In this document: in pieces, positions 6,931-30,585 of the stretch | Layout: the number at the start of each line of letters is the position of its first letter | Position numbering within the stretch: position 1 is the first letter of the stretch | NCBI GenBank assembly: GCA_013360195.1 | Contig: JABWCQ010000016.1 | Coordinates: 1 to 64,000 of the forward strand | Source of the DNA: a bacterium | GTDB lineage: Bacteria > Electryoneota > RPQS01 | Reading direction: 5' to 3' | Length of the DNA stretch: 64,000 nucleotides | The notes under the pieces: model-generated | Told to the model about the DNA's origin: nothing | Seen by the model: only the letters and a program-made list of their open reading frames with translations | The model's database searches: none | Position numbers and translations under genes: made by a program

Positions 6931-7869
6931 TCAGAAATTTATGGAGAAAGACAGCCCTGACGAGGAGCCGGGACCACCACTAAATGGCTGAACTTTCCAG
7001 TTTGCCGCGTGTCTGCCGACCAGCGCATCGGCTACTGCATAACCGTAGGCGCTGCCGACCCAAACATCAGATGCCCAATGCCAGCGTGAATCAATTCTCT
7101 GCAAGGCCACTGACGCCGCACAGAGATAGATAAGAATGTCAACCGGCACAGAGTGAATGTGCTCATCCATGACGCGTGCGATTTGGAACGCGTGCGATGA
7201 GTGCCCGGAAAAGAAGGATTGACCGGGTTCAAAAAAATCCCAATGAGTGGAGGAATACCCTTCAAGAGGACGAGGCCGTCCCGTTATCCTGTTCACCAGC
7301 ACTTTTGGCGGCCCGGCAATCAAGTAACTCTCAAGGATTTCCGCGCTCATCCGCGCCATCCTCTCGAATCCGACAAGATAAGAAAGAGCCGCAGCTCCAA
7401 AAATGTATTTGTTCATCGTACCTTGCCGGCCAATTGGCTCCAGAAACTCGCCTGCTTCATGGAAAGGTTCCACTATCCAGTGGTCCTTGTTTCGATGGAT
7501 TCCGTTAGTAATCTCATCATCGAGACAGTATATGCCTGCGCCAATAGCGACTATTCCGGCAAGGTATTTAAGAGACTTTGGACTAAGCCGCGCTGGTGAA
7601 GAATAAAGCCATACCGCATCCGATAAACCGGTCCTGCCTACGAATTCTATATCTTTCAATATCTTACGCGAGAAAACAGTCTTTCCAAACACCGGGTGCC
7701 CGTATGGTCTTGGCCGAGATCCGCTGCTGTCTGGAGTCGGGCCGCCGGATACCTGGGTAATGGCCAACGGAGACGGCACGCTCCCCGCGGGTGTAAATTC
7801 ACCGGCATGTGCCGATATCAGCGAAATGAATAGACAAATGGCAAAGCCGGTGATGGTACGGAACTTCAA
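6931..7869 (-). CDS. exported PAP2-superfamily phosphatase
   Basis: The 312-residue protein has a signal peptide (TGFAICLFISLISAHA) and a C-terminal PAP2 (vanadium-haloperoxidase-type acid phosphatase) core. The three catalytic motifs are visible: NRITGRPRP (normally K-x6-RP, with Asn in place of the Lys), FFSGHSSH (the PSGH block) and QRIDSRWHWASD (R-x5-H-x3-D). Family members dephosphorylate lipid phosphates or small phosphate esters at the membrane or in the periplasm. The start codon is TTG with a purine-rich stretch just upstream. It is the first gene of an operon continuing into a porin, a PstS-like protein and a sensor kinase, which would fit release and uptake or sensing of phosphate. 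Confidence 0.85.
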   Translation of the reverse strand: MKFRTITGFAICLFISLISAHAGEFTPAGSVPSPLAITQVSGGPTPDSSGSRPRPYGHPVFGKTVFSRKILKDIEFVGRTGLSDAVWLYSSPARLSPKSLKYLAGIVAIGAGIYCLDDEITNGIHRNKDHWIVEPFHEAGEFLEPIGRQGTMNKYIFGAAALSYLVGFERMARMSAEILESYLIAGPPKVLVNRITGRPRPLEGYSSTHWDFFEPGQSFFSGHSSHAFQIARVMDEHIHSVPVDILIYLCAASVALQRIDSRWHWASDVWVGSAYGYAVADALVGRHAANWKVQPFSGGPGSSSGLSFSINF

Positions 7870-8237
7870 CTCTTCTGGAAGATTGGGATTTGGGTGATAC
7901 GGCTCTTTTCAGACACTATTTACGGTGGATTTTGCATAGATTCAATAGCTTCACTGAATTAGAATTGTGTGAAACAGCTCGGAGGTGACAATTTAAGTTA
8001 TGTTTTTTCAATATGTTTACTTTGCGGACCGCACTTTCTGCACAACCTGCAGGGTCATATCCTCCTTTTTTCTAATAACTTGGTTTGCCTAGACAGGATA
8101 TTTTGAGTTTATCTTCTTATTTTGATGTCTGGTCGACCGCCACAAATTGATTGGCCAGAGTTTCTCAGCCGAAGTGCCCTCAAGTGCGTCTGGCGGCTGT
8201 AGGGCTCAGAATTAGCTTTGCCTCAAAACTGGTTAAA
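7870..8237. other. divergent promoter region
   Basis: These 368 bases separate the PAP2 operon (minus) from the histidine-kinase-led operon (plus), so promoters for both must lie here. The stretch is AT-rich around 7990-8130. I could not pick a -35/-10 pair with confidence. An open frame extends upstream of 8238 to a TTG at 8151, but its residues look non-coding. Confidence 0.4.
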
Positions 8238-9101
8238 ATGGACAACTTGCAAGAGAAAGAATCAAACGACGAAATCAGCAGGCTAAAGTCTGAACTTGAC
8301 GCCGTTCGTGCCCAGCTTCAGCAGACTCAGAAGCAGCTGATACACTCGGAGAAGATGGCAACCATCGGAATGCTCGTCGCCGGTGTTGCACATGAGATAA
8401 ACTCTCCGATTGGCGCGCTTGGCAGCATGCACGCGACTCTTGTAAAGGCGCTCGAACGGCTTAAGTGCAACTTGACATGCGACGGAGCTAACAGTGCGCT
8501 CTTAGATGATCCCAAGATCGCCGCGACACTCGCAATAATCGACGATGCAAATCGTGTCATCACAAACGGGACTCTGCGCGTTACCGGCATTGTGCGCCGA
8601 CTGCGAAGTTTCGCAAGAGTGGATGAAGCGGAGCGAACAATAGCGAATATTCATGACGGCATTGAAGACACGCTGACTCTGATCGAGCATGAAATTAAAC
8701 ACAATATCAAAATTGCAAAGCATTTCGGCAAAGTTCCCGATATCCTTTGCTATCCCGGACAGCTGAACCAGGTGTTCCTTAATCTTCTCGTCAACTCTCG
8801 TCAGGCAATGGAAAACGGCGGCGAAATCAGCATCACAACAGGAGTTGAAGATGGTTGCATCAGAATAGACTTCACTGATACGGGCAAGGGAATCTCGCCT
8901 GAGCACATTGAGAAGATTTTCGAACCCGGTTTCACGACCAAACAAGCGGGAGTCGGAACCGGACTTGGGCTGTTCATTGTGAAATCAATTGTTCAGGCTC
9001 ATGGCGGAACGATCCGAGTTCAGAGTGAAGTGGACAAGGGAACGACTTTCACAATAAACTTACCCATTGAGCAAAGCGAACCGAATGCCTGTTGCCAATA
9101 A
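8238..9101 (+). CDS. soluble sensor histidine kinase
   Basis: The 287-residue protein has no membrane segment. It starts with a coiled coil (residues 10-40, SRLKSELDAVRAQLQQTQK), followed by the H box AGVAHEINSP with His 52, a HisKA helix pair, and an HATPase domain with LLVNSRQAM (N box), FTDTGKGIS (G1) and GVGTGLGLFIV (G2). The coiled coil plus H box closely resembles that of the kinase at 3074-5077, so the two may be paralogues. The ATG at 8238 is preferred over an upstream TTG because the added residues look non-coding. It opens an operon whose last gene (16690) encodes a response regulator, the likely partner. No input domain is present, so it is probably controlled by binding another protein. 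Confidence 0.9.
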   Translation: MDNLQEKESNDEISRLKSELDAVRAQLQQTQKQLIHSEKMATIGMLVAGVAHEINSPIGALGSMHATLVKALERLKCNLTCDGANSALLDDPKIAATLAIIDDANRVITNGTLRVTGIVRRLRSFARVDEAERTIANIHDGIEDTLTLIEHEIKHNIKIAKHFGKVPDILCYPGQLNQVFLNLLVNSRQAMENGGEISITTGVEDGCIRIDFTDTGKGISPEHIEKIFEPGFTTKQAGVGTGLGLFIVKSIVQAHGGTIRVQSEVDKGTTFTINLPIEQSEPNACCQ

Positions 9102-10383
9102 CCGGGGAGTGCAAACTTGTGTTGGATTCAAGTTCTGGCGCGAGTTGTTTGCGTTCACACTGCTTGTTTTCGCTGCCAATAGCGCGCTTTCGGCGCCTGC
9201 TGATTCGAGTCGGAGCTTTGCAAAACCGCTGCCGTCCCGCACAGTCCTGGAACGAATCGTCTCTTTTCCTGGACAACTGGCTTATTCCCCCGTTCGTTAT
9301 ACGGTTCTCGGTCTTGGCTACGCAGGTGTCTATTTGGACGACACCGGCTTCATGCAGAGGGCAAGCAGCCTTTTCCGCCGGGCTGGCCTCCTGCCTGTCT
9401 ACGCTCCTCGAACCGGCGCCGGGCTTCGTTATACGAAAAACGATTATCTTGGCGATTCTGCGAAGCTTGTCCTGACCGCATCCTCGTGGGTAGATGCCAG
9501 ACAACTTTATTCCATCGCATGGGAAGAGATTTCGCTTGGACATGGTGTCGAATCCGGCCTGATGCTAAGATATCGCTCGCTAACTGCTGAGTCGTTCTAC
9601 GGCAAGAGTCCACGTGCAAGAGAAAGTGATAGACTTTCCTATTCGGCGGAAGACGTTTTATTCGAGTTGTCGCTGCAAAGGGATATTCATGAATTCGTCC
9701 GGGCAAGCATAGAAATCGGAATGAGTAACACCAGTGTCTTCGACGGCCGAGATCACGGTTCCCGTCCGATTTCTGACGTCTATTCTGAAAACACTTTGCC
9801 CGGATTGAAGGATGACACGCGCCTTCAAGGAACCGAGTTCCGTTTGCGATATGATGACACAAACGATTCTGCTCACCCAAGCACGGGCAGGATCGGCGTC
9901 TTCAGCGCGTCGCTTTTCAATGATATTCATAATGATGAATTAAGCTTCTGGAAAACCTCTGCTGACTTGACTCAGCATATTCATTTATTCCGCGATCGCA
10001 TTCTCGCATTGCGAAGTGCTGCGGAAATGACGCAGGGGATCGAGGGATCGGATATTCCATTCTATCATCTCGCTGAAATTGGCAGCTATGGAACAATTCG
10101 GGGATTCTCACGAGGCAGATTTCGCGACAATGACTTCTTTTTGGCATCTGCAGAGTATCGTTATCCGATTTGGATTCCGTGGCATAAAGCCGTGGATGCG
10201 GTAGTATTCGTTGATGGTGGACAAGTATCCCACGATATTATCGAAGAAGTGGCGTTGTCAGACTGGCAAATTGGATACGGAGGGGGATTTCGTTTCTACA
10301 ATACAACTGGTTTGATTGCGAAAACCGAACTTGCCTTCTCATCCGAAGCGATGCGCTTCTATTTTTCGCTGAACACCCCATGA
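9085..10383 (+). CDS. Omp85/BamA-superfamily surface-antigen-like barrel protein
   Basis: The 432-residue protein has a signal peptide (LFAFTLLVFAANSALSA) and a beta-rich body. Residues from about 240 match the C-terminal barrel of the bacterial surface antigen (D15) family: RYDDTNDSAHPSTGR, the conserved IRGFSRGRFRD block (the L6 loop that reaches into the pore) and VVFVDGGQV. No POTRA repeats are evident between the signal and the barrel, so it is a short, POTRA-poor member rather than BamA itself. The ATG at 9085 overlaps the kinase gene by 17 bases; a TTG at 9067 is the alternative. The stop overlaps the next gene (ATGA at 10380), so it is probably made together with the kinase-like lipoprotein. 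It may export or anchor that partner, which is inference. Confidence 0.8.
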   Translation: MPVANNRGVQTCVGFKFWRELFAFTLLVFAANSALSAPADSSRSFAKPLPSRTVLERIVSFPGQLAYSPVRYTVLGLGYAGVYLDDTGFMQRASSLFRRAGLLPVYAPRTGAGLRYTKNDYLGDSAKLVLTASSWVDARQLYSIAWEEISLGHGVESGLMLRYRSLTAESFYGKSPRARESDRLSYSAEDVLFELSLQRDIHEFVRASIEIGMSNTSVFDGRDHGSRPISDVYSENTLPGLKDDTRLQGTEFRLRYDDTNDSAHPSTGRIGVFSASLFNDIHNDELSFWKTSADLTQHIHLFRDRILALRSAAEMTQGIEGSDIPFYHLAEIGSYGTIRGFSRGRFRDNDFFLASAEYRYPIWIPWHKAVDAVVFVDGGQVSHDIIEEVALSDWQIGYGGGFRFYNTTGLIAKTELAFSSEAMRFYFSLNTP

Positions 10384-12050
10384 TTCTGCGAATCGGCAAC
10401 TTCATATTGATTCTGTGGTTCATCAGCATCGGTCTCGGCATTGCAGGCTGCGCCACCACAACGAGGTTTATTCCTCCGACACCATTGCCGGATGACCGCG
10501 CACACTTACCAGTGTGTCCGGAAGATACTGAGACTCATATCTTATGGGATGGTTACAAGCGGCAAATGGTTCAACCTGGAGCGGATCTCTTTGATATAAG
10601 TAGGTGGTTCAGGAAAGCCCTCGGAATTCCGAAAGAAGCGATGAATGCAGATGCCTTTGATGAAGTTAGAAACTCCAGCTGGTTTACGAACCGGAATTTT
10701 GTTGCTCCCCTTTCTCCCGCCGAAGTAGCACGCGGACCCAATACTGTCAATGGACCGGATCAATCTCAAGGCTGGACGATTATTCGCGCCAAAACTGTCG
10801 GTGTTACGCCAGGCTTTACAATTCGAGACTCGCGCGGTGACTCTTATGTCATAAAGTTTGATCCGCCCGGCAGCAGCGGCCTCAATAGTACGACCGATGT
10901 TATCGTGACAAAGTTATTGTACACCGCAGGCTACAACGTCCCGGAGAACTTTCTCGTCACTTTTGACCCCGCTATTCTAAGAATTGGTGAAAACGTCAAG
11001 TTTACTGGCAAAGATGGCAAGAATCGCGTGATGACATCGCAGGATTTGGCGGACATCCTTGCGCGAGTTGAGCTGACTCAGGACGGCAAAGTCCAAGGAA
11101 TGGCGAGTAAGTATATAGATGGAAAGCCAATTGGCCCGTTCTTGTTCAAGGGAACGAGGCACGACGATCCGAACGACATTGTGCCCCATGAACACCGGCG
11201 AGAGCTGCGTGGTATGCGCGTCATATTCGCCTGGCTCGGCCATTACGATACAAACGTCAGCAACTTTCTCGATGGCTTTGTCGAAACTGACAGTGGAAAT
11301 TACGTTCGACACTACCTTATTGACTTTGGCGCGTCACTGGGGAGCCATCCAAACGGTGCTAAGCCGGCGGATCGAGGAACCGAACCTTACATGGACCCCA
11401 TCCACATGTTGAACAAGTCACTGGAGCTCGGCTTGGTTCGCCGTCCGCGGGATTACCAGGAGGCCGTGGCGTTTCCGGAAGTCGGACGCTTTTGTTCAAG
11501 GAACTTTCATCCCAAGAGCTTCAAATTTATTTTTCCGACCCGCGCATTTGAGTATTATACTCCGCGTGATGCCTTCTGGGGGGCAAAGATTGTGGCCTCC
11601 TTTACCGAGCCGCAAGTTCGAGCCGCTGTTCAGACTGCCCATTATTCTGATAAGGCTGCCGAGGATTATCTCGTTCAAACTCTCATGGAACGGCGAGCTA
11701 TTGTGTGCCGGTATTGGTTTAACCGACTGTCGCCGCTTGATCACTTCCGACTCTCTGAAAGTGGTCTGCATTTTACGGATCTCGCGGTATCAGCCGGTCT
11801 TCAATACGACTCGCCACCGGATTACCGGTACAGAATGCACATGAATGGCCGCCAACTATCTGGTTGGCAGACCATTGGCACCGATCTGGAGATTGACAAA
11901 TCACAATTCCCCTCATTCGAGTCGTCTGACGACCAATTGACAATTGAATTGCAAGTGCGTCGAGGCGGGAGTTGGAACTCATCTGTGTTAGTTCATCTGG
12001 AACGAACTGGAGACTCGCTGGTTATCGTCGGGGTCCAGCGTAGATCATAG
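10380..12050 (+). CDS. lipoprotein with protein/PI3-4-kinase-like active-site residues
   Basis: The 556-residue protein has a lipobox (GIAGC, Cys 24), so it should be lipidated outside the cytoplasm. The middle part carries residues in the order and spacing of the protein-kinase-like fold. Lys 159 lies in SYVIKFDPP (beta-3 Lys). A hinge-like segment ASKYIDGKPIG follows at 242-252. Then come Asp 290 and Asn 295 in GHYDTNVSN (catalytic loop, D-x4-N) and Asp 315 in YLIDFGASLG (DFG). The last two resemble the DRHxxN and IDFG motifs of PI3/PI4 kinases and the HipA/FAM20-type families. No Gly-rich loop is obvious. Substrate and activity are unknown. It is translationally coupled to the Omp85-like gene and followed by two nucleotide-carrier-like genes. 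The kinase reading is inference; otherwise it is an uncharacterised lipoprotein. Confidence 0.6.
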   Translation: MILRIGNFILILWFISIGLGIAGCATTTRFIPPTPLPDDRAHLPVCPEDTETHILWDGYKRQMVQPGADLFDISRWFRKALGIPKEAMNADAFDEVRNSSWFTNRNFVAPLSPAEVARGPNTVNGPDQSQGWTIIRAKTVGVTPGFTIRDSRGDSYVIKFDPPGSSGLNSTTDVIVTKLLYTAGYNVPENFLVTFDPAILRIGENVKFTGKDGKNRVMTSQDLADILARVELTQDGKVQGMASKYIDGKPIGPFLFKGTRHDDPNDIVPHEHRRELRGMRVIFAWLGHYDTNVSNFLDGFVETDSGNYVRHYLIDFGASLGSHPNGAKPADRGTEPYMDPIHMLNKSLELGLVRRPRDYQEAVAFPEVGRFCSRNFHPKSFKFIFPTRAFEYYTPRDAFWGAKIVASFTEPQVRAAVQTAHYSDKAAEDYLVQTLMERRAIVCRYWFNRLSPLDHFRLSESGLHFTDLAVSAGLQYDSPPDYRYRMHMNGRQLSGWQTIGTDLEIDKSQFPSFESSDDQLTIELQVRRGGSWNSSVLVHLERTGDSLVIVGVQRRS

Positions 12051-12073: not shown

Positions 12074-13387
12074 GTGAACAACAACCCTTTTGGCGCAGTA
12101 CTTGATATCAGGCGAAGTGAGCTTGCTCTCGCCTTGCTCATGTTCGGCTATTTCTTTCTTGTCATAACGAGTTTCTGGATCCTCAAGCCGATTAAGAAGG
12201 CATTGTTCATTCAGTATTATGACTCTGCCGGTTTCACTATGTTCGACTGGCACATGACTGCGTCACAGGCAGAGCTTGTCGCGAAAGTTCTGAACATGGT
12301 AGTTGCCGTTCTGGCCGTCATCGTGTTTTCCTGGCTTAGTAATCGTTTCCGCCGGCAGCAATTGACGTACTGCTTTAGCGCATTCTTCCTTGCCGGATAT
12401 GCACTCTATGCGCCCCTGATCATCAGCCCATCAGACGTTACGGTCTGGACTTTTTACTTGTTTGGTGATTTGTACAGCACTCTAATGGTCGCAACTTTCT
12501 TTGTCTTCCTGAATGACAGTGTTACTCCTGCAGAAGCAAAGAGACTGTACGGCCTCATCGGGTTGGGAGGAGTTGCCGGAGGAGTCTTCGGTGCAAGCGT
12601 TGTCAGAGTGTGGATTGATGACTTGAACAGAAGCGACTGGATGTGGGTATGCTTCGCCCTTGCTACTGTAGTTTCCTTGCTGGCAATGCTGGCGGGTCGC
12701 ATTGTCGGCAGGCGCGGTGAAACCGAATCAAATTCAGAGGGCGGCAAGCCGGAAGTATCCGGCAACCCTGCGACAGAAGGCGCTCAGTTAGTTTTCAAGT
12801 CGCGCTATCTATTCTCCATAGCGGCGGTCGTTGGAATATATGAGCTTGTATCCACCCTTTTGGACTTCCAGTTCACTGCAACGATTTCGCACTATCTGGA
12901 TGGCGACGACATTGGGAGGCAGTTTTCTTTGGTCTTTGCGGTGACGAATTGGGTGTCGATGATCGTCCAGCTTTTCTTGACAAGTCTTATCATGACTCGT
13001 CTCGGATTAACTACCGCCCTGCTTGTATTGCCGATCGCCATATTCACTGGTTCGCTCGCATTTCTGATCTTGCCTGCGCTCTGGATTGGCAGTTCATTAA
13101 ACACAATCGACAATGGCTTCAGCTATTCGATAAATCAGTCGGCCAAGGAAACGCTGTACGTACCTGCTTCGACAGCCGAGAAATATAAGGCCAAAGCGTT
13201 CATTGATATGTTCATTCAGAGGTTCGCCAAGTCCCTTGCAGTCGGAGTTAGCCTCGTTGTAACCTCACTGTTTGTCGAATTTGAGAGCATTCGCTATCTC
13301 TCGCTCCTTACTATTGCCCTGGTCGCTGTTTGGATTATTGCCGTCCTCTATGCCGGTCGGCGTTTCAATGATCTCTCGGCAAGCTGA
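12074..13387 (+). CDS. Npt1/Npt2-type (ATP/ADP antiporter-like) membrane carrier
   Basis: The 437-residue protein has about 12 hydrophobic helices and no signal peptide. Features match the Npt/TLC-type nucleotide-exchange branch of MFS-like carriers. These are WILKPIKKALF in the first helices, AKRLYGLIGLGGVAGGVFGA in the middle, and INQSAKETLYVPASTAEKYKAKAFID before the last helices. In obligate intracellular bacteria such carriers swap ATP and ADP; in free-living bacteria their role is largely unknown. The GTG start at 12074 is 24 bases after the kinase-like gene. A second carrier of the same family follows, so they may work as a pair. The substrate (ATP, ADP, another nucleotide) cannot be read from the sequence. 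Confidence 0.8.
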   Translation: MNNNPFGAVLDIRRSELALALLMFGYFFLVITSFWILKPIKKALFIQYYDSAGFTMFDWHMTASQAELVAKVLNMVVAVLAVIVFSWLSNRFRRQQLTYCFSAFFLAGYALYAPLIISPSDVTVWTFYLFGDLYSTLMVATFFVFLNDSVTPAEAKRLYGLIGLGGVAGGVFGASVVRVWIDDLNRSDWMWVCFALATVVSLLAMLAGRIVGRRGETESNSEGGKPEVSGNPATEGAQLVFKSRYLFSIAAVVGIYELVSTLLDFQFTATISHYLDGDDIGRQFSLVFAVTNWVSMIVQLFLTSLIMTRLGLTTALLVLPIAIFTGSLAFLILPALWIGSSLNTIDNGFSYSINQSAKETLYVPASTAEKYKAKAFIDMFIQRFAKSLAVGVSLVVTSLFVEFESIRYLSLLTIALVAVWIIAVLYAGRRFNDLSAS

Positions 13388-13407: not shown

Positions 13408-16227
13408 ATGGTAGTCATTTTAAGAAAGCTCTTAAATGTACGGCCCGGGGAGGAAGCTCGGACGGCGCTGATGTTTGTTTACAGCTTTCTTCTGATTGCA
13501 TCACTGACAATTGTGAAGCCGGTTCGCGCTGCGCTTTTCCTGTCTGAGCTGGGACCAGAGAAGCTGCCCTACGTCTATCTGCTGATTGCGATTGCCACTC
13601 CCGCATTTGTTGTGCTTTACAGCGGCGCCTCTAAGCGTCTTCGCTTGAACCGCCTGATCACCGCGACACTCCTTGTGTCAATCGCATTCCTGTTGCTTTT
13701 CTGGTTCGCCCTTTCGAACGGATATCATGCGCATTGGTTGATTTACTCGTTCTATGTTTGGGTTTCCGCCTTCGGTTTGATCGTAACCACACAATTTTGG
13801 CTTCTCGCTAATTACGTATTCAATGCTCGTGAAGCGAAGCGGTTGTTTGGCATTATCGGTTCCGGGGCAATTGCCGGCGGGATCCTCGGCGGCTACTTGA
13901 CGTCTACTTTTGCTCCTGCGCTTCACACACACGGCATGCTTCATCTTTGCTATTTATTCCTTGCCATGTGCCTTCTGCTCCAGTACATTGTGTGGCGATG
14001 GAGTGCGCGAATTGCATATGCCGACCGCATGAGGCGTGAAGAGCGGCAGAAGGCATTTCAGCTGGAGTCAAGTCCTTGGAGACTTCTGCTGCAATCCCGA
14101 CTCGTCGTCTATATCGGTGCGATTGCCGGTACCGGCGTCCTGGTAGGTACGCTTATCGACTATCAATTCAGTGTCGTCGCTTCCCGGTCAATAACCGGTT
14201 CTGATCAACTTGCTTCATTCTTCGGATTCTGGCTTTCAAACCTGAGTATTGTCTCGCTTCTCTTTCAGGTCTTTGTAACCGGTTTTTTACTGAAGAGGTA
14301 CGGAGTAAACACGTCGTTAATGTTCCTGCCTGCATTAGTAACTGCCGGCTCGGCAACCGCGGTGCTGTTCCCAACGCTCTGGGCGGCGACCTCCTTGAAA
14401 GTTGGTGAAGGAGGCTTGAAACAGTCTTTGCACAAGTCAGCTCTTGAATTACTTGGATTGCCGGTGCCTGCCAGGCTGAAAAATCAGGTTAAGGCGTTGA
14501 TTGATGTCGCTGTTGACAACTTTGCAACAGGTCTGGCCGGATTGGTTATCCTGCTTCTTGTAGTGATTGGACTTGCCGATGTTCGTACTCTTGGAATTGT
14601 AATCCTCGTGTTTGCGGCATTGTGGATCGTATTGGTGGCCCGCACCAAATCAGAGTACTTGGACGCGTTTCGCCAGGCGATTGAAAGACGCACGATACGG
14701 CCGGAGGACATTTCCTATGAGATCTATTCCTCCATGCGTGCGGATCAGCTGATCGAGTTGCTTGGAGGAACGAACGATAGACAGATCTTGATGGCTCTAA
14801 GTTACCTGGAGAACATGAGAGATGCTCGCTTGCCGTTTCATCTTGAGCGCCTTCTGGATTCCTCTTCTTCTGATGTTCTCCGGTCTGTGTATCGTATTGC
14901 CCGGTCGCTTCCGGATGTTGATCTTTCTTTGAGAGCGCATAAGCATCTGTATCATAATCACCCTGCCGTGCGTGTAGCTGCAACAAGATATCTGCTTCGG
15001 CGGTCTGATGATAAGCAGGCGATGACGGAGGCTTTCTTGAGCGCTGAGAGTGATATGGTTAGGGCTGCGGCCATCGTGGCGGCGGCGAGGGAGTGGGTCG
15101 GAGACGGCGGGTTTAATGCTAGTGTAGATTTCAAGCGCCTGCTTGAGGATTTGTGCCGTCAGATAAGCATGAATCCGGCAGATTTAACTGTAACAAAGGC
15201 GCTGGCGGAAGCGTTAAGCATTGCTCCTCAACCGGAGCTGGAAGACTGTACTAAGACTCTCCTTCGTGCGAGTTCTCCGGATATAGTCGCATTTGCCGCA
15301 CTTAGTGCGGGCAGGTCCGGTAATACCGGATTCCTCGATACTCTATTGCCGCATTTGGAGAATAGACAGCTACGGCAAAGGATTCGCGAGGCAATCGCAG
15401 GCTACGGTGACCTGGTTTCCGAACGGCTTGCCTTTCTGCTTAATGACGGCGACTGCAAATATAGTATCAGACTGGAGATCCCAAGAATTCTATTCATGAT
15501 TGGGACAGATAAGAGCTTTACGTTGCTCTCCGATAGTCTCAACATCAGGAATGCGCGCTTGCGATTCGAAGTGCTGAGATCGCTGAACAAAATGAGGAGC
15601 CGCGACGCCCGCTTTCGGTTGAAATCGAAAATTCTCATGCCAGTTGTTTGGAATGAGATCGGGAACTACTATCGTCTCCTGCAAGTACATAATTGTGTGG
15701 ATGGAAACGCGTTGCAATCCTCCCTCCCGGAACCCGACCCGGATACTATCGCCTTCCGGATGCTACTGAAACGCGCCGTAGAAGAGCGATTAGCCGACAG
15801 TTTGGAGCGCGTTTTTCGATTGCTTGGCTTGAGACATTCACCGAAGGATATGTATCATGCGTACCTCTGCATCAGCGGAAGTGCGCCTGACCAGCGCGCG
15901 AATGCGATTGAGTTGCTTGAGCTTGTTATCAGACCGCAGGTCTACTCGGTTTTAGCGCCAATAATTGAGTACTCGTCTCCTGCCGATCTAGCCGAACTTG
16001 GGAAGCGCGTTTTTGGAATACACATTACCTCGGAAGGCGAGGCGCTCTCAGCACTGCTTCAAGGTGATGACGATTGGCTTCGAGCTGTTGCGTTGCACGT
16101 CTGCCGAAGATCTTTGGACCTCAGTTGTGAAATGGATGTCTCCGAATTCGAAACTCACGGTCACTTTATGGTGCGGGAGGCAGCACTCAGGAATCGTGAA
16201 AATTCTGCTTTGACGGCGATTCGGTGA
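13408..16227 (+). CDS. Npt-type carrier fused to a long HEAT-repeat domain
   Basis: Residues 1 to about 415 of 939 form a second Npt1/Npt2-like carrier, with SLTIVKPVRAALFLSE, AKRLFGIIGSGAIAGGILGG and LHKSALELLGLPVPARLKNQVKALID aligning with the previous gene. Residues from about 440 onward are helical repeats of HEAT type (IRPEDISYEIYSSMRADQL then many paired helices such as HPAVRVAATRYLL and SDMVRAAAIVAAAREW). They lie on the cytoplasmic side if the carrier has 12 helices. The tail probably serves as a docking or regulatory scaffold. The next gene is a lone cyclic-nucleotide-binding domain only 10 bases on, which could sit on this tail. The gene follows the first carrier by 20 bases. Confidence 0.85.
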   Translation: MVVILRKLLNVRPGEEARTALMFVYSFLLIASLTIVKPVRAALFLSELGPEKLPYVYLLIAIATPAFVVLYSGASKRLRLNRLITATLLVSIAFLLLFWFALSNGYHAHWLIYSFYVWVSAFGLIVTTQFWLLANYVFNAREAKRLFGIIGSGAIAGGILGGYLTSTFAPALHTHGMLHLCYLFLAMCLLLQYIVWRWSARIAYADRMRREERQKAFQLESSPWRLLLQSRLVVYIGAIAGTGVLVGTLIDYQFSVVASRSITGSDQLASFFGFWLSNLSIVSLLFQVFVTGFLLKRYGVNTSLMFLPALVTAGSATAVLFPTLWAATSLKVGEGGLKQSLHKSALELLGLPVPARLKNQVKALIDVAVDNFATGLAGLVILLLVVIGLADVRTLGIVILVFAALWIVLVARTKSEYLDAFRQAIERRTIRPEDISYEIYSSMRADQLIELLGGTNDRQILMALSYLENMRDARLPFHLERLLDSSSSDVLRSVYRIARSLPDVDLSLRAHKHLYHNHPAVRVAATRYLLRRSDDKQAMTEAFLSAESDMVRAAAIVAAAREWVGDGGFNASVDFKRLLEDLCRQISMNPADLTVTKALAEALSIAPQPELEDCTKTLLRASSPDIVAFAALSAGRSGNTGFLDTLLPHLENRQLRQRIREAIAGYGDLVSERLAFLLNDGDCKYSIRLEIPRILFMIGTDKSFTLLSDSLNIRNARLRFEVLRSLNKMRSRDARFRLKSKILMPVVWNEIGNYYRLLQVHNCVDGNALQSSLPEPDPDTIAFRMLLKRAVEERLADSLERVFRLLGLRHSPKDMYHAYLCISGSAPDQRANAIELLELVIRPQVYSVLAPIIEYSSPADLAELGKRVFGIHITSEGEALSALLQGDDDWLRAVALHVCRRSLDLSCEMDVSEFETHGHFMVREAALRNRENSALTAIR

Positions 16228-16237
16228 GGTTCACTAA

Positions 16238-16651
16238 ATGATTACAACAGTTGAAAAGGTTGTCTTTCTTCAGGACATTGATCTCTTCGCTCGTATTCCT
16301 TTGGAGGATCTTGCCTACATTGCTATGATTGCCGAGGAACAAAATCTGCAAGCGGGTACCGTCATCTATTCTGAAGGGGATGTATCGGATTCGATGTACC
16401 TGGTTCTTGATGGCGCTGTGCGCCTGCACAGAGGCGGCGCGGACGTTATGATCGCGAAGGCACGGGATGCATTCGGGACATGGGCGCTGTTCGATAATGA
16501 AAGAAGAATTGTTACCGCCACAGTACTGGAAGATTGCGCGGTCTTGAGAATTGGGAAGGATGACTTCCTTGATCTCTTGTCTGATCATTCCAGGATTTCT
16601 GAAGGGATTTTGAAGGTAATGGCCGCCAAGCTGCGAAGCTTGGTTGGTTAG
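16238..16651 (+). CDS. single-domain cyclic-nucleotide-binding protein
   Basis: The 137-residue protein is essentially one CRP-type cyclic-nucleotide-binding beta-roll: LFARIPLEDLAYIAMIAEE at the start, GTVIYSEGDVSDSMYLVLDG (conserved Gly turns), and DAFGTWALFDNERRIVTATV where CRP has the phosphate-binding cassette FGExALxxxxxRxAT. The usual Glu after FG is Thr here, so ligand binding may be altered. There is no DNA-binding helix-turn-helix and no kinase or channel domain. A ribosome site (GAGG) lies 8 bases before the ATG. It sits between the HEAT-tailed carrier and the response regulator and probably acts as a regulatory subunit of the carrier. Confidence 0.9.
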   Translation: MITTVEKVVFLQDIDLFARIPLEDLAYIAMIAEEQNLQAGTVIYSEGDVSDSMYLVLDGAVRLHRGGADVMIAKARDAFGTWALFDNERRIVTATVLEDCAVLRIGKDDFLDLLSDHSRISEGILKVMAAKLRSLVG

Positions 16652-16689
16652 AAATCATTTCGCATTTGCTGCTTAGTAACGGAGAATAC

Positions 16690-17175
16690 ATGTCTGAGAA
16701 AACCAATCCGCAAATTATTGTACTTGTCGACGATGAAGAAATGGTGCTCACCAGCATTCGGTCTTTAATTGATCTCGAAACTGATTACACTTGTGTTCCG
16801 TTTCGCTCTGCTTCGCAGGCGCTTGAATTCATTGCTTCATCCACTGATATTAGTTTGGTCGTGTCCGATTTCCTTATGCCGGAAATGGATGGAATCTCCT
16901 TTCTCGCAAAAGTGCGGCAGCTGCGTCCCGATGTTCCCAGAATCCTGCTGACGGGCTATGCGGATAAGGAGAATGCGATCAAAGCAATAAATGAAGTAGG
17001 TTTGTTTCAGTATATCGAAAAACCCTGGGATAACAGCGACTTGCTGCTGATTTTCAGGAATGGACTGGAGAAGAGGCAGTTGATGAGGAAATTGCAGGAG
17101 AAAATTGATGAGATTAACAAGGCCTACAGCGATCTTGACTCGCTGCATCGTGAGATTGTAAAGGCTTTTGTATGA
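16690..17175 (+). CDS. response regulator, receiver domain with short coiled-coil tail
   Basis: This 161-residue protein has all receiver landmarks: acidic pair Asp 14/Asp 15, phosphoacceptor Asp 60 (VVSDFLMPEMDG), Thr 88 (ILLTGYAD) and Lys 111 (YIEKPW). The last 40 residues (RKLQEKIDEINKAYSDLD) form a coiled coil. No DNA-binding or enzyme domain follows, so output is probably by protein contact. The start at 16690 has GGAG 7 bases upstream; an ATG-less extension is rejected. As last gene of the operon opened by the soluble kinase at 8238, it is the natural phosphorylation target. A strong terminator follows at 17214. Confidence 0.93.
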   Translation: MSEKTNPQIIVLVDDEEMVLTSIRSLIDLETDYTCVPFRSASQALEFIASSTDISLVVSDFLMPEMDGISFLAKVRQLRPDVPRILLTGYADKENAIKAINEVGLFQYIEKPWDNSDLLLIFRNGLEKRQLMRKLQEKIDEINKAYSDLDSLHREIVKAFV

Positions 17176-17213: not shown

Positions 17214-17238
17214 AAGAGCCTGCGCATCGCAGGCTCTT
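17214..17238 (+). terminator. rho-independent terminator
   Basis: An 11-bp perfect stem AAGAGCCTGCG / CGCAGGCTCTT with a 3-base loop is followed by GCTTGTT. It lies between two converging operons (response regulator on plus, YeeE-rhodanese on minus) and could work for both. Confidence 0.85.
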
Positions 17239-17261: not shown

Positions 17262-18455
17262 TCAGCAACCGCCGGTAATCTTCCTGGGTTTCTTGTCGGG
17301 TTCTTTTGGCCTGTCTCGTTGCGCTTCAATCATGGCATGAATTGCTGTGCCCGCTTCTTGCCGGAATTCCCGTACAACTGAGTTTACACTGTCCTGTCTC
17401 AATACCGCGCCTTCCCTGTTAAGAATCAGACTTCGGAAATGCGGTAGCCCCCCCTCAAGCACGGAAAGATTGCGATAACCGATTTCGTCAAGGACATGGT
17501 ACGCTATTACTGCATCTTGTTCGTTCTCTGCAACTAATATCTTGCGGACGTGCCGGCGGGCGAACAGGGTGTTCCATTCCTTGCTGAATAACTCGTGAAT
17601 CTGCAGATTGACAGATCCCGGCAATGAGAATTGATTATATGCCAACGAGTCGCTGACATCGACAATCTGCATACTCGGGTCTTTGTCAACGATTCGAAAC
17701 GCAAGCTCGTCTGAACTCATGTAACTGGTTTCGCAGGCCTCAAGGTGCTCCAATGAGGAAGCCATGGCAATTGTTCTCGACTTTCGATCCGGAAGCGATA
17801 TAAAAACTGCACCCGCGAATATTGTCACAACTGCAACGGTCAAGTGCTTTCTGAATCTGAAGTTGTTCGCGGGAGCTTGCCGATTCACTCGCTTCTCGAT
17901 CCGGCTGGTTACGGCAAAAGCAGACACCGCTACGACAATCAGCGCAAAGGCAAACCATCCCGCCGGAAGGCCAAGCGAATCGTACACTTTCACCGGACCG
18001 AGTGCTGAGGATTCGTGGAATCTCTCCCAGGCCGGAAACATCTCCGCAAAGAATAACACACCGATGAACAGTCCGCCGACAAAGAAGAGCGCGTCGATTT
18101 TCCCGATTGCCGCAGCGCAAATGCTTGTGCCTGGGCAGTAGCCGCCAAGGATAAACCCAACGCCCATAATGGCTCCGCCGACTATAGCAGGCCAAAGCCA
18201 CAGTGGATTTATGTATATGGCCTCCGTATCCAAGAGCCCGAAAAAATTGAGCAGCATTATCCCGCCCATAGCCGTGACGGCGGCGGAAAAGAATACTCTC
18301 AACACTGTGAAATCGTACCCGTAAAAGACTCCTGCGAGCTTTCGCGACGAGGAGAAACCGGCCTGCTCGAGCACAAAACCAAAGGCAATTCCGATAATCA
18401 GCGCGATAACAAAATTCAGTTCCGGAGAAATCGGATCAGGTACAAATGGTCCCAT
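17262..18455 (-). CDS. YeeE/YedE-family sulfur transporter with rhodanese-like C-terminal domain ending in GGC
   Basis: The 397-residue protein starts with a YeeE/YedE half of about five helices, with the family Cys motif GGYCPGTS near residue 110. Another helix follows near 210-225. Residues from about 240 form a rhodanese-like domain (MQIVDVSDSLAYNQFSLPGSVNL). The position of the catalytic Cys loop reads VAENEQDAV, so no persulfide can form there. The chain ends in ITGGC, a lone C-terminal Cys after two Gly, like the sulfur-carrier arm of SoxY (GGCGG). YeeE proteins are linked to thiosulfate or sulfur-species uptake. It is the last gene of the octaheme cytochrome operon, 18 bases after its YeeE partner. 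Confidence 0.85.
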   Translation of the reverse strand: MGPFVPDPISPELNFVIALIIGIAFGFVLEQAGFSSSRKLAGVFYGYDFTVLRVFFSAAVTAMGGIMLLNFFGLLDTEAIYINPLWLWPAIVGGAIMGVGFILGGYCPGTSICAAAIGKIDALFFVGGLFIGVLFFAEMFPAWERFHESSALGPVKVYDSLGLPAGWFAFALIVVAVSAFAVTSRIEKRVNRQAPANNFRFRKHLTVAVVTIFAGAVFISLPDRKSRTIAMASSLEHLEACETSYMSSDELAFRIVDKDPSMQIVDVSDSLAYNQFSLPGSVNLQIHELFSKEWNTLFARRHVRKILVAENEQDAVIAYHVLDEIGYRNLSVLEGGLPHFRSLILNREGAVLRQDSVNSVVREFRQEAGTAIHAMIEAQRDRPKEPDKKPRKITGGC

Positions 18456-18473: not shown

Positions 18474-18995
18474 TTAGATCCAAAGTCTGCGAAAAAGGTA
18501 TGCGACTGCGTAGCCAGTTCCGAAAATCGCGAGCATTGTTATGAATCCAGCTGAGGACAGTACGGCCATACCACTAAGCGCCGCGCCGCTTGTGCAGCCG
18601 CGCGCAAACTGTGCGCCGATACCAAACAGTGCTCCGCCGGCAGCCGCAAATGCCCATCTAGTCTTGTTTGCAATGAATGGGCCGCCTTCGCTCTTAAATG
18701 AAAGGCGATCGGAGACCAGACCGGACAGAAACGCGCCTATGAGTACTCCCGCAAGTTCAAAAACCAGCCAGGATTTCATCGGGTTCTCCCGTTCTGCATT
18801 CATGTACGGCCCGTAATATGGCGATTCTGCGGCGTGATCCGGCGCCACTTTGCCAACAACCGCGATAACTGTGTCCTTTATCGCGCCGCTCGCGCCGAGT
18901 CCGCGACCGGTTACGAATATGCTCACAAGCAGTACTGCACCTAGTAGGAATCCGGCAAGATACGGATTCATATATTTCGTGGAAACCTGGTTCAT
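18474..18995 (-). CDS. YeeE/YedE-family membrane protein
   Basis: The 173-residue protein has about four membrane helices and the family motif FARGCTSGAALSG with a conserved Cys, typical of one half of the split YeeE/YedE (PmpA/PmpB-like) pairs. Together with the downstream gene it would form a complete sulfur-compound channel. The ATG overlaps the cytochrome b stop (ATGA at 18992-18995). Known relatives move thiosulfate or sulfur species through a relay of Cys residues; which species is moved here is not shown. Confidence 0.88.
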   Translation of the reverse strand: MNQVSTKYMNPYLAGFLLGAVLLVSIFVTGRGLGASGAIKDTVIAVVGKVAPDHAAESPYYGPYMNAERENPMKSWLVFELAGVLIGAFLSGLVSDRLSFKSEGGPFIANKTRWAFAAAGGALFGIGAQFARGCTSGAALSGMAVLSSAGFITMLAIFGTGYAVAYLFRRLWI

Positions 18996-19657
18996 CGCTG
19001 CACCATTTCAGGTTTATTTACTCCGTTTGATTTCTCCAGCACGCCACTTCCCTCTTCACTAAATTCTTCATATCCGGTTAACATTGCCTTAAGATTTGCG
19101 GTCGGTGACTTGCCCGTGGTTGTCAGGTAGATGTGCATCACAAAGAATGTCACGAGGATATAGGCTCCCAACGTGTGCATGGCTGCAACGACTGAGAGTC
19201 CGGAAATGTTCAAACTGATTACTTCGTACTTCTGCGGATACCGGTAGAACATGTAGATAAGGCCGGAGGTCACCATGATAGGTATCACTAATACTTTTAA
19301 TCCGGCGTACACCAACTTCTGCAACGGATTCAGTTTACTTATCACCGTCCGCTTTGCCGGATGAGGTGCTCCGCGGAATATACCGAAGATGTAAAAATCA
19401 AGCTGCGCGCGGATATTCGCCGTTGTCGGTATGTACTGCTTCCATGCGTCTGTCGTTAGATGCCAGAAGATAGCAAAGCATATAAGTGCAAGAAAAGCTA
19501 TTGCGGCCGTGTTGTGAATCTCTACAGCTTGCCGAAAACCAAAAAAGTGAAGTGATCCGTGTATTTCGAATCCTGTCACTCCCAATAGAACGATCAGAGC
19601 GGCCTGCATCCAGTGCCAGAAGCGCTCAAAAGCCGGATAAACATACTCTCGCTTCAT
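18992..19657 (-). CDS. membrane cytochrome b (quinol-oxidising subunit type)
   Basis: The 221-residue protein has four membrane helices and paired heme-ligand candidates: RFWHWMQAAL near the start, VEIHNTAA and AIFWHL in helix 2, and AAMHTLGAY with FVMHIYLTTTG in helix 4. This is the cytochrome b561 / formate-dehydrogenase-gamma / thiosulfate-reductase type that passes electrons between the quinone pool and a periplasmic redox partner. The start at 19657 is chosen because the ATG overlaps the stop of the octaheme cytochrome gene (ATGA) and follows directly with MKREYVYPAFERFWHW. The partner is almost certainly that cytochrome. Confidence 0.9.
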   Translation of the reverse strand: MKREYVYPAFERFWHWMQAALIVLLGVTGFEIHGSLHFFGFRQAVEIHNTAAIAFLALICFAIFWHLTTDAWKQYIPTTANIRAQLDFYIFGIFRGAPHPAKRTVISKLNPLQKLVYAGLKVLVIPIMVTSGLIYMFYRYPQKYEVISLNISGLSVVAAMHTLGAYILVTFFVMHIYLTTTGKSPTANLKAMLTGYEEFSEEGSGVLEKSNGVNKPEMVQR

Positions 19658-21222
19658 TTTATCGCCTGCCTCCGCTTTCTGGGTGATGCAAGTCTCGCAA
19701 CTCCATGAAGTCCTGCGCCAATCAACGTGAGGACAAGCAGGCTGACTCCCGTCCGTTCCACCCATATGTTTCTGTCACGACCGGGCAAATAGAAGTCGGT
19801 CAGGCTTGCCACCCTGCTTTCGCTGCGAGTGTGACATTCAACGCAGGAGAGCGCTTCCTTCGCCGGCGCCACCATGTGGTTGATCGGCCAGTACATCTCC
19901 GTGCCTGCGAATCCGTAATTACCGCTGTAAGGTAATCCAACCTCCTTCATGCCCGCTGCTGATGCTAATTGCCAGTCAAACTGGCGCCAGTATGCGCTGT
20001 CACCCGGCTGCCGTGACACTGTTTTCGGCTGAATCAGGTACTTGTACTGCGTGTCGTAAATCTGCCGCGAACGGTGAATCTTCACCGGTATTATTTTAGA
20101 ATCCGGATCGCTGTAGGATCCGTGCAGTTCATTCACTCTCAAGGTTTCTGTAGGATCAAATGTGTCACCAATCAGATAGTGCGAGGCTGTTCCGTTAAAC
20201 CAAACGTACTCGGGCTTGACATTCTTGCCCCAGATAAAAGATCCCTTCGTGGTCTGATATGTCTCGACACCTAACGTATCATTCTTTATGGAGTACGGCT
20301 GACCGTTCTGAAGTGTCCCCGCTGTCGACCAGTCCCACTGAAGTTTTGTCGGATGTTCCTTGGCATAGATCGGAATATGGCAGGTCTGACAGGCAACTTT
20401 CAGTGTGTGCTTATTCAAGACCCCGTCTGCATGCGGCAGCTCGCCGTGACAACTTTCGCACGAGACGCGGTCGCGATTCATCGAGGAAACGGAGTAGAGC
20501 TTCCCCAGCATCTGATGCTGCTCCGCCGTATGGCACGCTGTGCACTCCATATTGACTCCGTCGACCGCCATATGAATGTCCAAGTCTCGCGATGGCTCAA
20601 GCAAGGCGACTTCCAGGTCGCCGTGCTTGACGTTGTTTCCGCCGCCGCCAAAGAAGTGACAGGTTCCGCAATTTGCCCGCGTGGGTTTTCCAACGGTCTT
20701 CGCTACTTCCGTAAGGTCAACAGAAGGGTCCGGCATGCCCGCGCCGGCCTTCATGTATAAATTGCTTCTGTCATGACAGGCCAGGCAATCGACATTGTAG
20801 GGATTCTTGAAATCAAAGGATTCGTCACCATAGCCATAGCCGATGTGACAGCGATTACAAGCCTGCTCGTTGCCTGATATGCCAATGCAATAGTTATTCA
20901 AGATGTTCTTCTTGCCGACTTTGCGAATTCCTCTTCCTTCAATATATTCGATTCGGTCCCAATTCCAATGAGAGGATTGCATGACCTCGTGATGCCGTTC
21001 TGTGTGACAGGATACACACGTTTTCGTCACGTCCTGCGGCTTGCTGAAGGGACCGTTCAAGACTTCAAACTTGCCATGATCCACCGAAGGCTTGCGGACC
21101 GTTCCATAGCGCAAGCGAAGTTGCTCAAGAGGCGTCCGTTCTGAACTGCGTTCCGGCAGGATGTTCAGGAAGAGCAAGGCCAGAAAGCTCAGTATCCCCA
21201 GCACTACTAGTATTCGTCTCAT
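19654..21222 (-). CDS. octaheme c-type cytochrome of the tetrathionate reductase family
   Basis: The 522-residue protein has an N-terminal hydrophobic segment (LVVLGILSFLALLFLNI) and eight CxxCH motifs (CVSCH, CNRCH, CLACH, CGTCH, CTACH, CESCH, CQTCH, CVECH). A C-terminal helix (VSLLVLTLIGAGLHG) would hold it in the inner membrane, facing the periplasm. Size, heme number and the segment between hemes 1 and 2 match the octaheme tetrathionate reductase family known from Shewanella, whose members reduce tetrathionate and also nitrite or hydroxylamine in vitro. The physiological substrate is not certain. The ATG at 21222 is preferred to a GTG at 21267 because it starts right at the signal anchor. 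It is the first gene of the operon with cytochrome b and two YeeE proteins, which supports sulfur-oxyanion reduction. Confidence 0.92.
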   Translation of the reverse strand: MRRILVVLGILSFLALLFLNILPERSSERTPLEQLRLRYGTVRKPSVDHGKFEVLNGPFSKPQDVTKTCVSCHTERHHEVMQSSHWNWDRIEYIEGRGIRKVGKKNILNNYCIGISGNEQACNRCHIGYGYGDESFDFKNPYNVDCLACHDRSNLYMKAGAGMPDPSVDLTEVAKTVGKPTRANCGTCHFFGGGGNNVKHGDLEVALLEPSRDLDIHMAVDGVNMECTACHTAEQHQMLGKLYSVSSMNRDRVSCESCHGELPHADGVLNKHTLKVACQTCHIPIYAKEHPTKLQWDWSTAGTLQNGQPYSIKNDTLGVETYQTTKGSFIWGKNVKPEYVWFNGTASHYLIGDTFDPTETLRVNELHGSYSDPDSKIIPVKIHRSRQIYDTQYKYLIQPKTVSRQPGDSAYWRQFDWQLASAAGMKEVGLPYSGNYGFAGTEMYWPINHMVAPAKEALSCVECHTRSESRVASLTDFYLPGRDRNIWVERTGVSLLVLTLIGAGLHGVARLASPRKRRQAIK

Positions 21223-21688
21223 ACGACAATCATCAGCTTGGTTTGCCGGATGCGAGAGCTTGCCCACGCTGTTCGGTGTATTTCGGACAAGGTGGACGTA
21301 ATCGGCGTACTCTTGCCTTTACCGAACCAAAAGTTGAGAAGTTCCATCAGATTCAACTTGACTCAATTTGTAAACTATACAATTAATTGCTTGAATATAT
21401 GAATCAGACTCGCTCTTGTCAATCTGCTTTGACCTGTTCTTTGAGTAGTGTGACATGTCGACATTTCCTGTGCCGGACTCTTGCGTCTTTGCCGCCAAAA
21501 TCCTCTCAGCCTCCTGCGCAAATGTATCCACGGGACACGGATTTCGCTCCACATTGCATAGGATCTCCTAAAAAGTGAATAAAATCAACAGAGGGTATCC
21601 GCGGCGGATACCCTCTGTTTTCAGCACTCGAAAAGGCAGAAAACCTAGGCCTGCTCTCTTTGATTTCCCTGTGCGGATTCCATATCCA
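21223..21688. other. intergenic region between sulfur operon and ABC-exporter operon
   Basis: This stretch holds the upstream region of the octaheme cytochrome gene and the terminator at 21589 for the exporter operon. An inverted repeat AAGTTGA / TCAACTT (21331-21337 and 21353-21359) could be a regulator site. Short open frames on both strands have no recognisable content. No -35/-10 pair stands out. Confidence 0.4.
21589..21617 (-). terminator. rho-independent terminator of the ABC-exporter operon
   Basis: A perfect 12-bp stem CAGAGGGTATCC / GGATACCCTCTG with loop GCGGC is flanked by TTTT on the plus side and by TTGATTTT when read on the minus strand. It lies 72 bases after the last exporter gene. 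Confidence 0.8.
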
Positions 21689-28945: not shown

Positions 28946-30571
28946 ATGAACTCTCGCATTGTCTCGTCCCTTCTAATTGCACTCGCGTTCACACTCGCTC
29001 TTGGCTGCTCCGAGGATCGCGCCAATCGCCTGGCAACTGAGCCTGTATCGGATTCCCAAACATGGGGAGTATTGATCTACGCCGCCGGAAACTACGATGG
29101 CGATGTTATACAGAACTCACAGATGTCCCTCACATCCCGTGCAATCGCGACGGTCCGTGTGATGGAGACAGAGCTCAACGCGCCGCAAACGCTTACGCAG
29201 GCTTGTATTGCTGCACCCGTCACGCAAGGGGATGTCGAAATATACGAAGTGGACTTCAGCCCCAGGACTCCCGAAGGACTTCTGAACTCTGAGCTTGTTG
29301 CCAATCTCGGTCAGGTCAGCACGGGCGATCCGCTGACACTGCGCGCCTTTCTGGAAACCGCACTGTCGCAAATGAACGCGGATCACTATGTGCTTTGTCT
29401 CGCCGGTGACGGTCATGGCTGGCAAGGGATGATGGGCGACTACGGCAATTCCCTTGGAATGCCAGTGGACATGCTGCGCAGAGAGCTCGAGAGTGTCTCG
29501 CACTTGCTTCCAAACGGAGGCTTTGACATTCTCGCATTGTATGCGCGCAATATGGGCACGCTTGAGAATGTGTATGAGCTTCGCGATTGTGCCGATTACA
29601 TTGTCACTTCAACCTTTAATGTCGAACAGCCGCATCATGAAATTATTGCCGAATGGTACAGGGATCTGCAAGCCCAGCCCGAACTCTCACCGCGTGAGTT
29701 GGCTGCATACATGATTGACGCGGAACGGCTTGCGCAAGACACTGAAACTGCGGTGTTCCTGACTTCCCTGTGGGATGCAAATGCCGTCGGCTCTATCGCA
29801 TCAGCATTTGATGAGTTTTCACGTCAATGGCTTGCCGCAAGTGAGTTGCAATCGCCCGCCCTGCTCGGCATCAGAGACGAACTAATGCAAACTGATTTGC
29901 ATAACGGCATTCAACTGGATATACAAGAATATGCCGATGCACTTGCCGCTTCCGGACAGTTCACCGATGAACAATACGCACCGTTCCTTGACGCTGCGGT
30001 GAATCTTGTCCACGCTGCGGAAGCGGCGAGGTTGATGTCTTACGGCTCCGACGACGCCGCCGGACACGCAGGACTTTGCTACTATTTCCCGACACAAACA
30101 GACCTTGACTCCACGGCTGGAGACGCATATGCCGAGCTGCAGCTTTCCGATGTGTCCGGGGCATGGGCGAATTATGTCAAACAGTTGCCCCGGGCACCGC
30201 GCACGACGGTCACGATTTCCGGTTTGGGACATGTGCGCGCAGGTCTGTCTGTTCAGAATCTGGTCTTCTTCATGGACACTCTGGCAACAGGTTTGCCCGC
30301 TCCCACGCGCAATCTGAGTCCGCAATGGACTCCCGTAACGGCTAATGGTGATACCGTCGACTACTCGATTTCCTTCAGCTTGACTGAAGCTGATTCCATG
30401 ATGGTTCGCTTCGGTCTCTACATTGACAACAATCAGGACGGTCAGTTGAATACCGGTGACCGCTTCGGTTTCTGGGATCTTCCGGGAGGCGGAAACTTCG
30501 AACGGCTTATGTTGCATCGCGGCGATGTACTGACCGGCCGCAACGTGTTCATTAATTTCAACCGCAATTAA
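28946..30571 (+). CDS. clostripain-like (peptidase C11 family) lipoprotein lacking the catalytic Cys
   Basis: The 541-residue protein has a lipobox (LALGC, Cys 21). Its body follows the clostripain fold: TWGVLIYAAGNYDGDV at the start (usually WTVLVYMAADNDL), LAGDGHGWQG with His 157 at the catalytic His site, and FDILALYARNMGTLE where active members have FDACLMxxxE. The expected Cys is Arg 201 and the Asp before it is Tyr 199, so peptidase activity should be lost. The C-terminal 120 residues form a beta-rich domain. It lies 14 bases before a TonB-dependent receptor gene and is likely a surface or periplasmic binding partner of it. The role is unknown. Confidence 0.82.
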   Translation: MNSRIVSSLLIALAFTLALGCSEDRANRLATEPVSDSQTWGVLIYAAGNYDGDVIQNSQMSLTSRAIATVRVMETELNAPQTLTQACIAAPVTQGDVEIYEVDFSPRTPEGLLNSELVANLGQVSTGDPLTLRAFLETALSQMNADHYVLCLAGDGHGWQGMMGDYGNSLGMPVDMLRRELESVSHLLPNGGFDILALYARNMGTLENVYELRDCADYIVTSTFNVEQPHHEIIAEWYRDLQAQPELSPRELAAYMIDAERLAQDTETAVFLTSLWDANAVGSIASAFDEFSRQWLAASELQSPALLGIRDELMQTDLHNGIQLDIQEYADALAASGQFTDEQYAPFLDAAVNLVHAAEAARLMSYGSDDAAGHAGLCYYFPTQTDLDSTAGDAYAELQLSDVSGAWANYVKQLPRAPRTTVTISGLGHVRAGLSVQNLVFFMDTLATGLPAPTRNLSPQWTPVTANGDTVDYSISFSLTEADSMMVRFGLYIDNNQDGQLNTGDRFGFWDLPGGGNFERLMLHRGDVLTGRNVFINFNRN

Positions 30572-30585
30572 TCAGGATACACTTC

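Follow-up and report, generated by a model that had tools for sequence, protein, structure and literature searches.

The window, i.e., the whole stretch of 64,000 nucleotides that was analysed, derives from a bacterium of the candidate phylum Electryoneota and carries a gene cluster on one strand in the order histidine kinase, Omp85-superfamily barrel, kinase-like lipoprotein, NTT carrier, NTT-HEAT fusion protein, cyclic-nucleotide-binding-domain (cNBD) protein, and response regulator, followed by a terminator-like stem (Table 1). The gene of the kinase-like lipoprotein starts with an ATG that shares bases with the stop codon of the gene before it (ATGA). The same gene order recurs in loci of LCP-89 (L014) and Zixibacteria (L023), where a gene for an exported metallophosphoesterase additionally follows the kinase gene. 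A PAP2-family phosphatase with a signal-like start (6931–7869, minus strand) lies on the strand opposite to the cluster, and in three loci of Zixibacteria (L021, L034, and L064), relatives of this phosphatase share the strand of the Omp85 gene and are located just upstream of that gene. Other genes in the window include a YeeE/YedE-type sulfur transporter fused to a rhodanese domain (17262–18455, minus strand), a multihaem cytochrome c related to outer-membrane MtrC-type cytochromes and followed by a cytochrome b561 (18992–21267, minus strand), and a clostripain-family peptidase followed by a TonB-dependent receptor (28946–33414, plus strand).

Table 1. Positions in the window of the cluster genes and of the parts of the kinase lipoprotein, with the evidence for each.
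Feature	Positions	Strand	Evidence
Histidine kinase, probable cluster start	8151–9101	+	PF02518, E 4e-28
Omp85-superfamily outer-membrane barrel, no room for POTRA	9067–10383	+	PF01103, E 1e-24
Kinase-like lipoprotein gene, 556 aa	10380–12050	+	ORF; 74 homologues; AF2 model, pLDDT 95
Signal peptide, lipobox IAGC, Cys24	10380–10451	+	Sequence; hydrophobic stretch precedes I-A-G-C24
Kinase-fold domain, ~residues 85–450	10632–11729	+	AF2 of domain alone, pLDDT 92; best Foldseek and VIA-align matches are kinases
β1–β2 loop K138-x2-G141-x3-G145, candidate nucleotide-binding loop	10791–10814	+	Invariant 74/74, partly imposed by retrieval
Lys159, β3 lysine (Y156-V-I-K159)	10854–10856	+	Invariant 74/74; aligned to HipA_2 lysine
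Asp173, candidate αC acid	10896–10898	+	E/D in 56/74, Gly in 14/74
Hinge-like A242-S-K-Y-I-D-G-K-P-I-G252	11103–11135	+	Ser243 and Gly252 invariant
Catalytic-loop D290-x4-N295 (G287-H-Y-D290-T-N-V-S-N295)	11247–11264	+	Both invariant 74/74
D315-F-G metal-binding motif (Y312-L-I-D315-F-G)	11322–11330	+	D and F invariant 74/74; aligned to HipA_2 LIDHG
C-terminal β domain, FN3-like	11730–12047	+	Residues 451–542 resemble FN3 of POMGNT2 and cytokine receptors, Z ~8
NTT-type ATP/ADP-carrier-like membrane protein	12074–13387	+	PF03219, 87 bits vs. cut-off 21; matches solved NTT structures 9j3n and 9j3j
NTT-HEAT fusion protein	13408–16227	+	PF13646 and PF03219
cNBD protein	16238–16651	+	PF00027, E 2e-18
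Response regulator	16666–17175	+	PF00072, E 2e-22
Terminator-like stem, 11 pairs, after last gene	17214–17238	+	Consensus scan only

A preliminary description of the kinase lipoprotein had pointed to a lipobox cysteine (Cys24), the lysine of YVIK (Lys159), a hinge-like ASKYIDGKPIG, the D-x4-N spacing of GHYDTNVSN, and YLIDFG, and all of these residues are located in the sequence where it had placed them. Single-sequence searches with the protein against Pfam, NCBIfam, PDB sequences, PADLOC, and plasmids yielded no useful match, a single-sequence scan of genome contigs yielded no match, and a profile search of PDB sequences with the family returned chance matches only. Relatives at 41–48% identity were found within the candidate phylum by genome search, and an alignment query, which was required for the contigs, retrieved 80 loci, distributed among Calditrichota, KSB1, Latescibacterota, Zixibacteria, Krumholzibacteria, Eisenbacteria, Gemmatimonadota, Acidobacteriota, Poribacteria, Marinimicrobia, and others. 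One candidate (L011 in genome G049, E 1e-4) was rejected as a likely chance match, the open frame there having the look of an unrelated repeat protein. Two loci (L012 and L013) represent a distant second branch of the family at ~30% identity, in which an Omp85 gene precedes the kinase gene and no NTT gene lies directly beside it. Furthermore, tandem copies of the kinase gene occur in L048, L057, L058, L072, and L085, usually with a second Omp85 gene, which suggests paired paralogues.

Conservation was assessed in an alignment of 74 homologues with a median pairwise identity of ~38%. Lys159, Asp290, Asn295, Asp315, and Phe316 are identical in all 74, and the invariance of the first four, named beforehand as a check on the kinase assignment, is thus borne out; it is not built into the sample, because the peptide patterns used for homologue retrieval contain none of these four residues. 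Lys138, Gly141, Gly145, Ser243, Asp263, Asp266, Arg274, Arg277, and His311 are also invariant, the invariance of the Lys138–Gly145 loop being partly imposed because that loop belongs to one of the retrieval patterns. The preliminary description had considered neither the glycine loop nor the αC glutamate obvious. Both statements need revision: the strongly conserved K138-x2-G141-x3-G145 sits between β1 and β2, at the place of a glycine loop, and Asp173 is a candidate for the αC acid. The glycines at the latter position occur mostly in relatives from Krumholzibacteria, Eisenbacteria, and Gemmatimonadota.

AlphaFold2 models of the whole lipoprotein and of residues 85–452 alone reached pLDDT values of 95 and 92, respectively, and the top Foldseek matches for the kinase domain were CtkA and Fam20C (E 7e-5, prob 1.00). 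A kinase-fold match had been set beforehand as the test of the proposed identity, and in a Dali-like comparison (VIA-align) all 50 matches listed for the domain model were kinase-fold proteins, including CtkA (Z 15.1; 4.2 Å over 238 residues), Fam20 (Z 13.8), PI4KII (Z 13.3), CotH (Z 12.6), HipT (Z 11.8), actin-fragmin kinase (Z 11.3), and MavQ (Z 11.2). On the basis of these models, the kinase fold of the window protein is close to certain. The assignment of its tail as FN3-like may hold in the sense of a common arrangement only. Profile comparison, which does not depend on the structure models, is consistent with the fold: hhalign of the 74-homologue alignment against five HipA_2 proteins gave a probability of 96 with Lys159, Asp290, and Asp315 in register, and a weak match to the Pfam model HipA_2 was obtained for 6 of the 74 members (best E 8e-4). 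No match was obtained between the window protein and the HipA models PF07804 and PF20613, nor between any of the 74 members and the Fam20 Pfam models (at E 0.1), PF00454 (PI3/PI4 kinase), or the CotH model. Because the kinase-fold matches and the HipA_2 profile alignment place the protein in the Fam20/HipA/PI4K/CotH branch, yet by these tests it is a member of none of the named families, the kinase lipoproteins constitute a new family in that branch, outside every named family tested. New by Pfam and NCBIfam, the family may have been listed earlier as an unnamed kinase-like family. The supposition that the protein is atypical in this sense stands; that it is inactive is unlikely, because the catalytic residues are fully retained.

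Comparison with the characterized groups of this branch delineates the family further. HipA, HipT, HipA_2, and CtkA are the closest by both profile (prob 96) and fold, with the lysine and both aspartates in register; by contrast with HipA, however, the window kinase is exported according to its lipobox and has no HipB-type partner, its neighbours being Omp85 and NTT genes rather than the other half of a toxin-antitoxin pair. Fam20A, Fam20B, and Fam20C share with it the fold (Z 13–14 over ~255 residues) and, as predicted here, a place outside the cytosol, and it would share their dependence on ATP brought to a secretory compartment. Fam20 kinases are held by disulfides and Fam20C has D-N/H-G as its metal motif, whereas the window kinase is a bacterial lipoprotein with an FN3-like tail, an Omp85 partner, and a DFG motif, and no cysteine occurs in the invariant or near-invariant columns of the 74-homologue alignment. 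Type II PI4-kinases resemble it in fold (Z 13), D-x4-N, and a DFG-type motif; unlike these, it lacks a PF00454 match and any sign of a lipid substrate. The CotH spore-coat kinases, which act on structural proteins, are likewise bacterial and similar in fold (Z 12.6), but the window kinase has no CotH Pfam match, and its family, found here in diderm phyla, carries an envelope signal and is partnered with Omp85. Three further identities were rejected: that of a toxin-antitoxin component, owing to the absent partner and the export signal; that of a defence gene, owing to the absent PADLOC match; and that of a pseudokinase, owing to the invariant catalytic residues.

The same residues bear on the chemistry. 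It has been reported that some kinase-like folds perform chemistry other than phosphorylation (PMC10870513), and with these precedents and the incomplete conservation of the αC acid, the lipoprotein could be thought to transfer AMP or to glutamylate, as SelO and SidJ do, or to serve as a pseudokinase scaffold for Omp85. We consider this improbable, as the lysine, D-x4-N, and the metal aspartate are all invariant and in canonical order, and catalytic residues are usually lost in scaffolds. By our own estimate, it is very probable that the window protein is an active kinase.

A location outside the cytoplasm, as envisaged in the preliminary description for a kinase or pseudokinase, is supported by export signals. 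In a crude scan, 34 of 81 homologues had a lipobox and 38 had a start that resembles a signal peptide of another kind (72 of 81 together), and most of the other nine are open reading frames that are truncated or have a wrong start. Export of the family, predicted from these signals, is close to certain. For the lipid-anchored window protein, the periplasmic face of the outer membrane, beside the Omp85 barrel, would be the most likely site.

The gene context, which the preliminary description did not cover, is the more surprising aspect of the find. The Omp85 gene is the most constant neighbour of the kinase gene, being located immediately upstream in 67 of the 72 loci with enough flank, and mostly overlapping it or separated from it by <60 bases. 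The window Omp85 protein has 438 amino acids and PF01103 as its only domain match, and its barrel leaves no space for POTRA; judged by sequence, it would belong to the noNterm class of the superfamily, i.e., a barrel without an N-terminal extension, as listed by Heinz and Lithgow, 2014 (PMC4104836). In that survey, a role of noNterm Omp85 proteins in membrane-protein biogenesis was merely suggested, whereas the window Omp85 is paired with a kinase. The constancy of this pair, retained even by the distant paralogues L012 and L013 that have no NTT gene beside them, could also imply that the lipoprotein assists an Omp85 machine for assembly or translocation and that the link to NTT comes from membership in one regulon, not from participation in one reaction. 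This reading appears quite improbable, given how very strongly the kinase co-occurs with NTT across genomes, whatever the gene order; to our knowledge, moreover, none of the known Omp85 partners is a kinase.

The linkage between the kinase and NTT carriers is evident at the level of both genomes and genes. In a comparison of 386 genomes that ignores shared ancestry, PF03219 was detected in 20 of the 23 genomes that have the kinase and in 30 of the 363 that lack it (Fisher p 5e-17), and outside the window's phylum in 12 of 13 and 30 of 334, respectively (p 3e-11). Within that phylum (39 genomes), it was detected in 8 of 10 kinase-positive genomes and in none of the 29 kinase-negative ones, and in all eight NTT-bearing genomes an NTT gene lies within ~6 kb of the kinase gene; the genome of the window is the sole one of its family in the sample that carries kinase or NTT. 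Two of the three kinase-positive genomes with no detected NTT are 86–89% complete. As for proximity, an NTT gene lies at most ~10 kb from the kinase gene in 14 of the 23 kinase-positive genomes, and within 9 kb in 28 of the 41 loci flanked by 5 kb or more on each side, whereas several kinase-positive genomes carry their NTT gene far from the kinase gene; by our own estimate for an NTT gene so near, based on two or three NTT genes per genome of 4–5 Mb, ~1% would be expected by chance. In a tree of 80 NTTs, two separate, well-supported clades of stand-alone NTTs consist almost wholly of proteins from kinase loci (13 of 14 and 17 of 18 members), and the two exceptions (G241 and G388) come from a contig end or from an incomplete genome. 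The neglect of shared ancestry in the statistics is answered in part by the spread over phyla, by the order and strand of the kinase and NTT genes, which vary between phyla, and by the existence of two NTT clades. In 20 NTT regions taken from genomes that lack the kinase, moreover, neither an Omp85 gene of the window type nor a kinase-like gene was found, which makes the link specific.

Arrangements of NTT, NTT-HEAT, and cNBD in free-living bacteria have been described, with no function assigned, by Major et al., 2017 (PMC5381601), and the window cluster shows the same NTT family and the same order of NTT-HEAT plus cNBD. Their study reported no kinase link, whereas two NTT clades are here tied to an exported kinase; no paper tying such carriers to an exported kinase was found in the open-access literature. 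Characterized members of the NTT family exchange ATP and ADP, and those of intracellular bacteria import ATP (PMC5381601). The window NTT has K, D, D, and K at the four charged positions, i.e., the two lysine positions of characterized NTTs are kept and their two glutamate positions are occupied by aspartate. In characterized NTTs, four charged residues are needed for transport. As one of the charged positions is occupied by glycine in 19 of 33 kinase-linked NTTs, the substrate is perhaps not ATP in all of them. We know of no characterized NTT that exports ATP from a free-living bacterium.

Import by the NTTs of intracellular bacteria (PMC5381601) is also the precedent for a salvage reading, in which the NTTs import nucleotides, a phosphoesterase cleaves off phosphate, and the kinase-like lipoprotein, instead of phosphorylating a target in the envelope, binds extracellular nucleotides or processes them. 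The PAP2 phosphatase upstream of the cluster, on the other strand, would fit such a pathway, as would the phosphoesterase, Na/phosphate symporter, and PhoU present in some cassettes. However, the phosphate genes occur in a minority of loci only: a metallophosphoesterase in 24 kinase loci (17 of the 41 with flanks of 5 kb or more), and a Na/phosphate symporter with PhoU between cluster genes in two (L031 and L032). Moreover, the constant core partner is Omp85 and not a phosphatase, and salvage needs no phosphotransferase, yet the catalytic residues are all invariant. We therefore regard salvage as unlikely.

The best single explanation of the locus, which we hold to be marginally probable, is an envelope phosphorylation system to which ATP is exported by NTT. 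In this system, the lipid-anchored lipoprotein would act outside the cytoplasm as an active phosphotransferase of kinase fold on an envelope or secreted target, either protein or glycan. A phosphotransferase located in the periplasm requires a supply of ATP there, and the NTT proteins would feed it by carrying cytoplasmic ATP out through the inner membrane in exchange for ADP from the periplasm. A potential that is negative on the cytoplasmic side of this membrane would favour movement of ATP4- outward and ADP3- inward. The exported metallophosphoesterase would remove the phosphate in many relatives, and in a few the Na/phosphate symporter with PhoU would recover it, thereby closing the cycle. 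The kinase fold, the invariant catalytic residues, the export signal, the pairing with Omp85, and the linkage to NTT are computational results, whereas catalysis, ATP transport and its direction, the substrate, and the exact membrane are inferred. Against an ATP-fed system stand the three kinase-positive genomes with no detected NTT, the NTT genes located far from the kinase gene, the glycine at one charged position of many linked NTTs, the want of a known ATP-exporting NTT in free-living bacteria, the absence of the αC acid in approximately one quarter of the homologues, and the fact that a substrate is not evident.

According to a common statement, the periplasm contains no ATP (PMC4632601), and the path by which ATP might traverse the inner membrane of bacteria has been called unknown in another review (PMC7432876). 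An exported kinase family tied to NTT carriers in many phyla connects the question of periplasmic ATP with that of the orphan NTT proteins and makes both testable. The family is in itself a widespread addition to the kinase-like fold that was missed by sequence libraries, and its features suggest a bacterial counterpart of the animal kinases that phosphorylate secreted proteins. It is conceivable, although we place it somewhat short of probable, that many diderms of the FCB group and Acidobacteriota phosphorylate their envelope by a dedicated system that exports its own ATP and is composed of an inner-membrane ATP/ADP carrier, a lipid-anchored Fam20-like kinase coupled to Omp85, and often an exported phosphatase. 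If so, bacteria would have an analogue of Golgi phosphorylation, and the orphan NTT proteins of free-living bacteria would be assigned a function.
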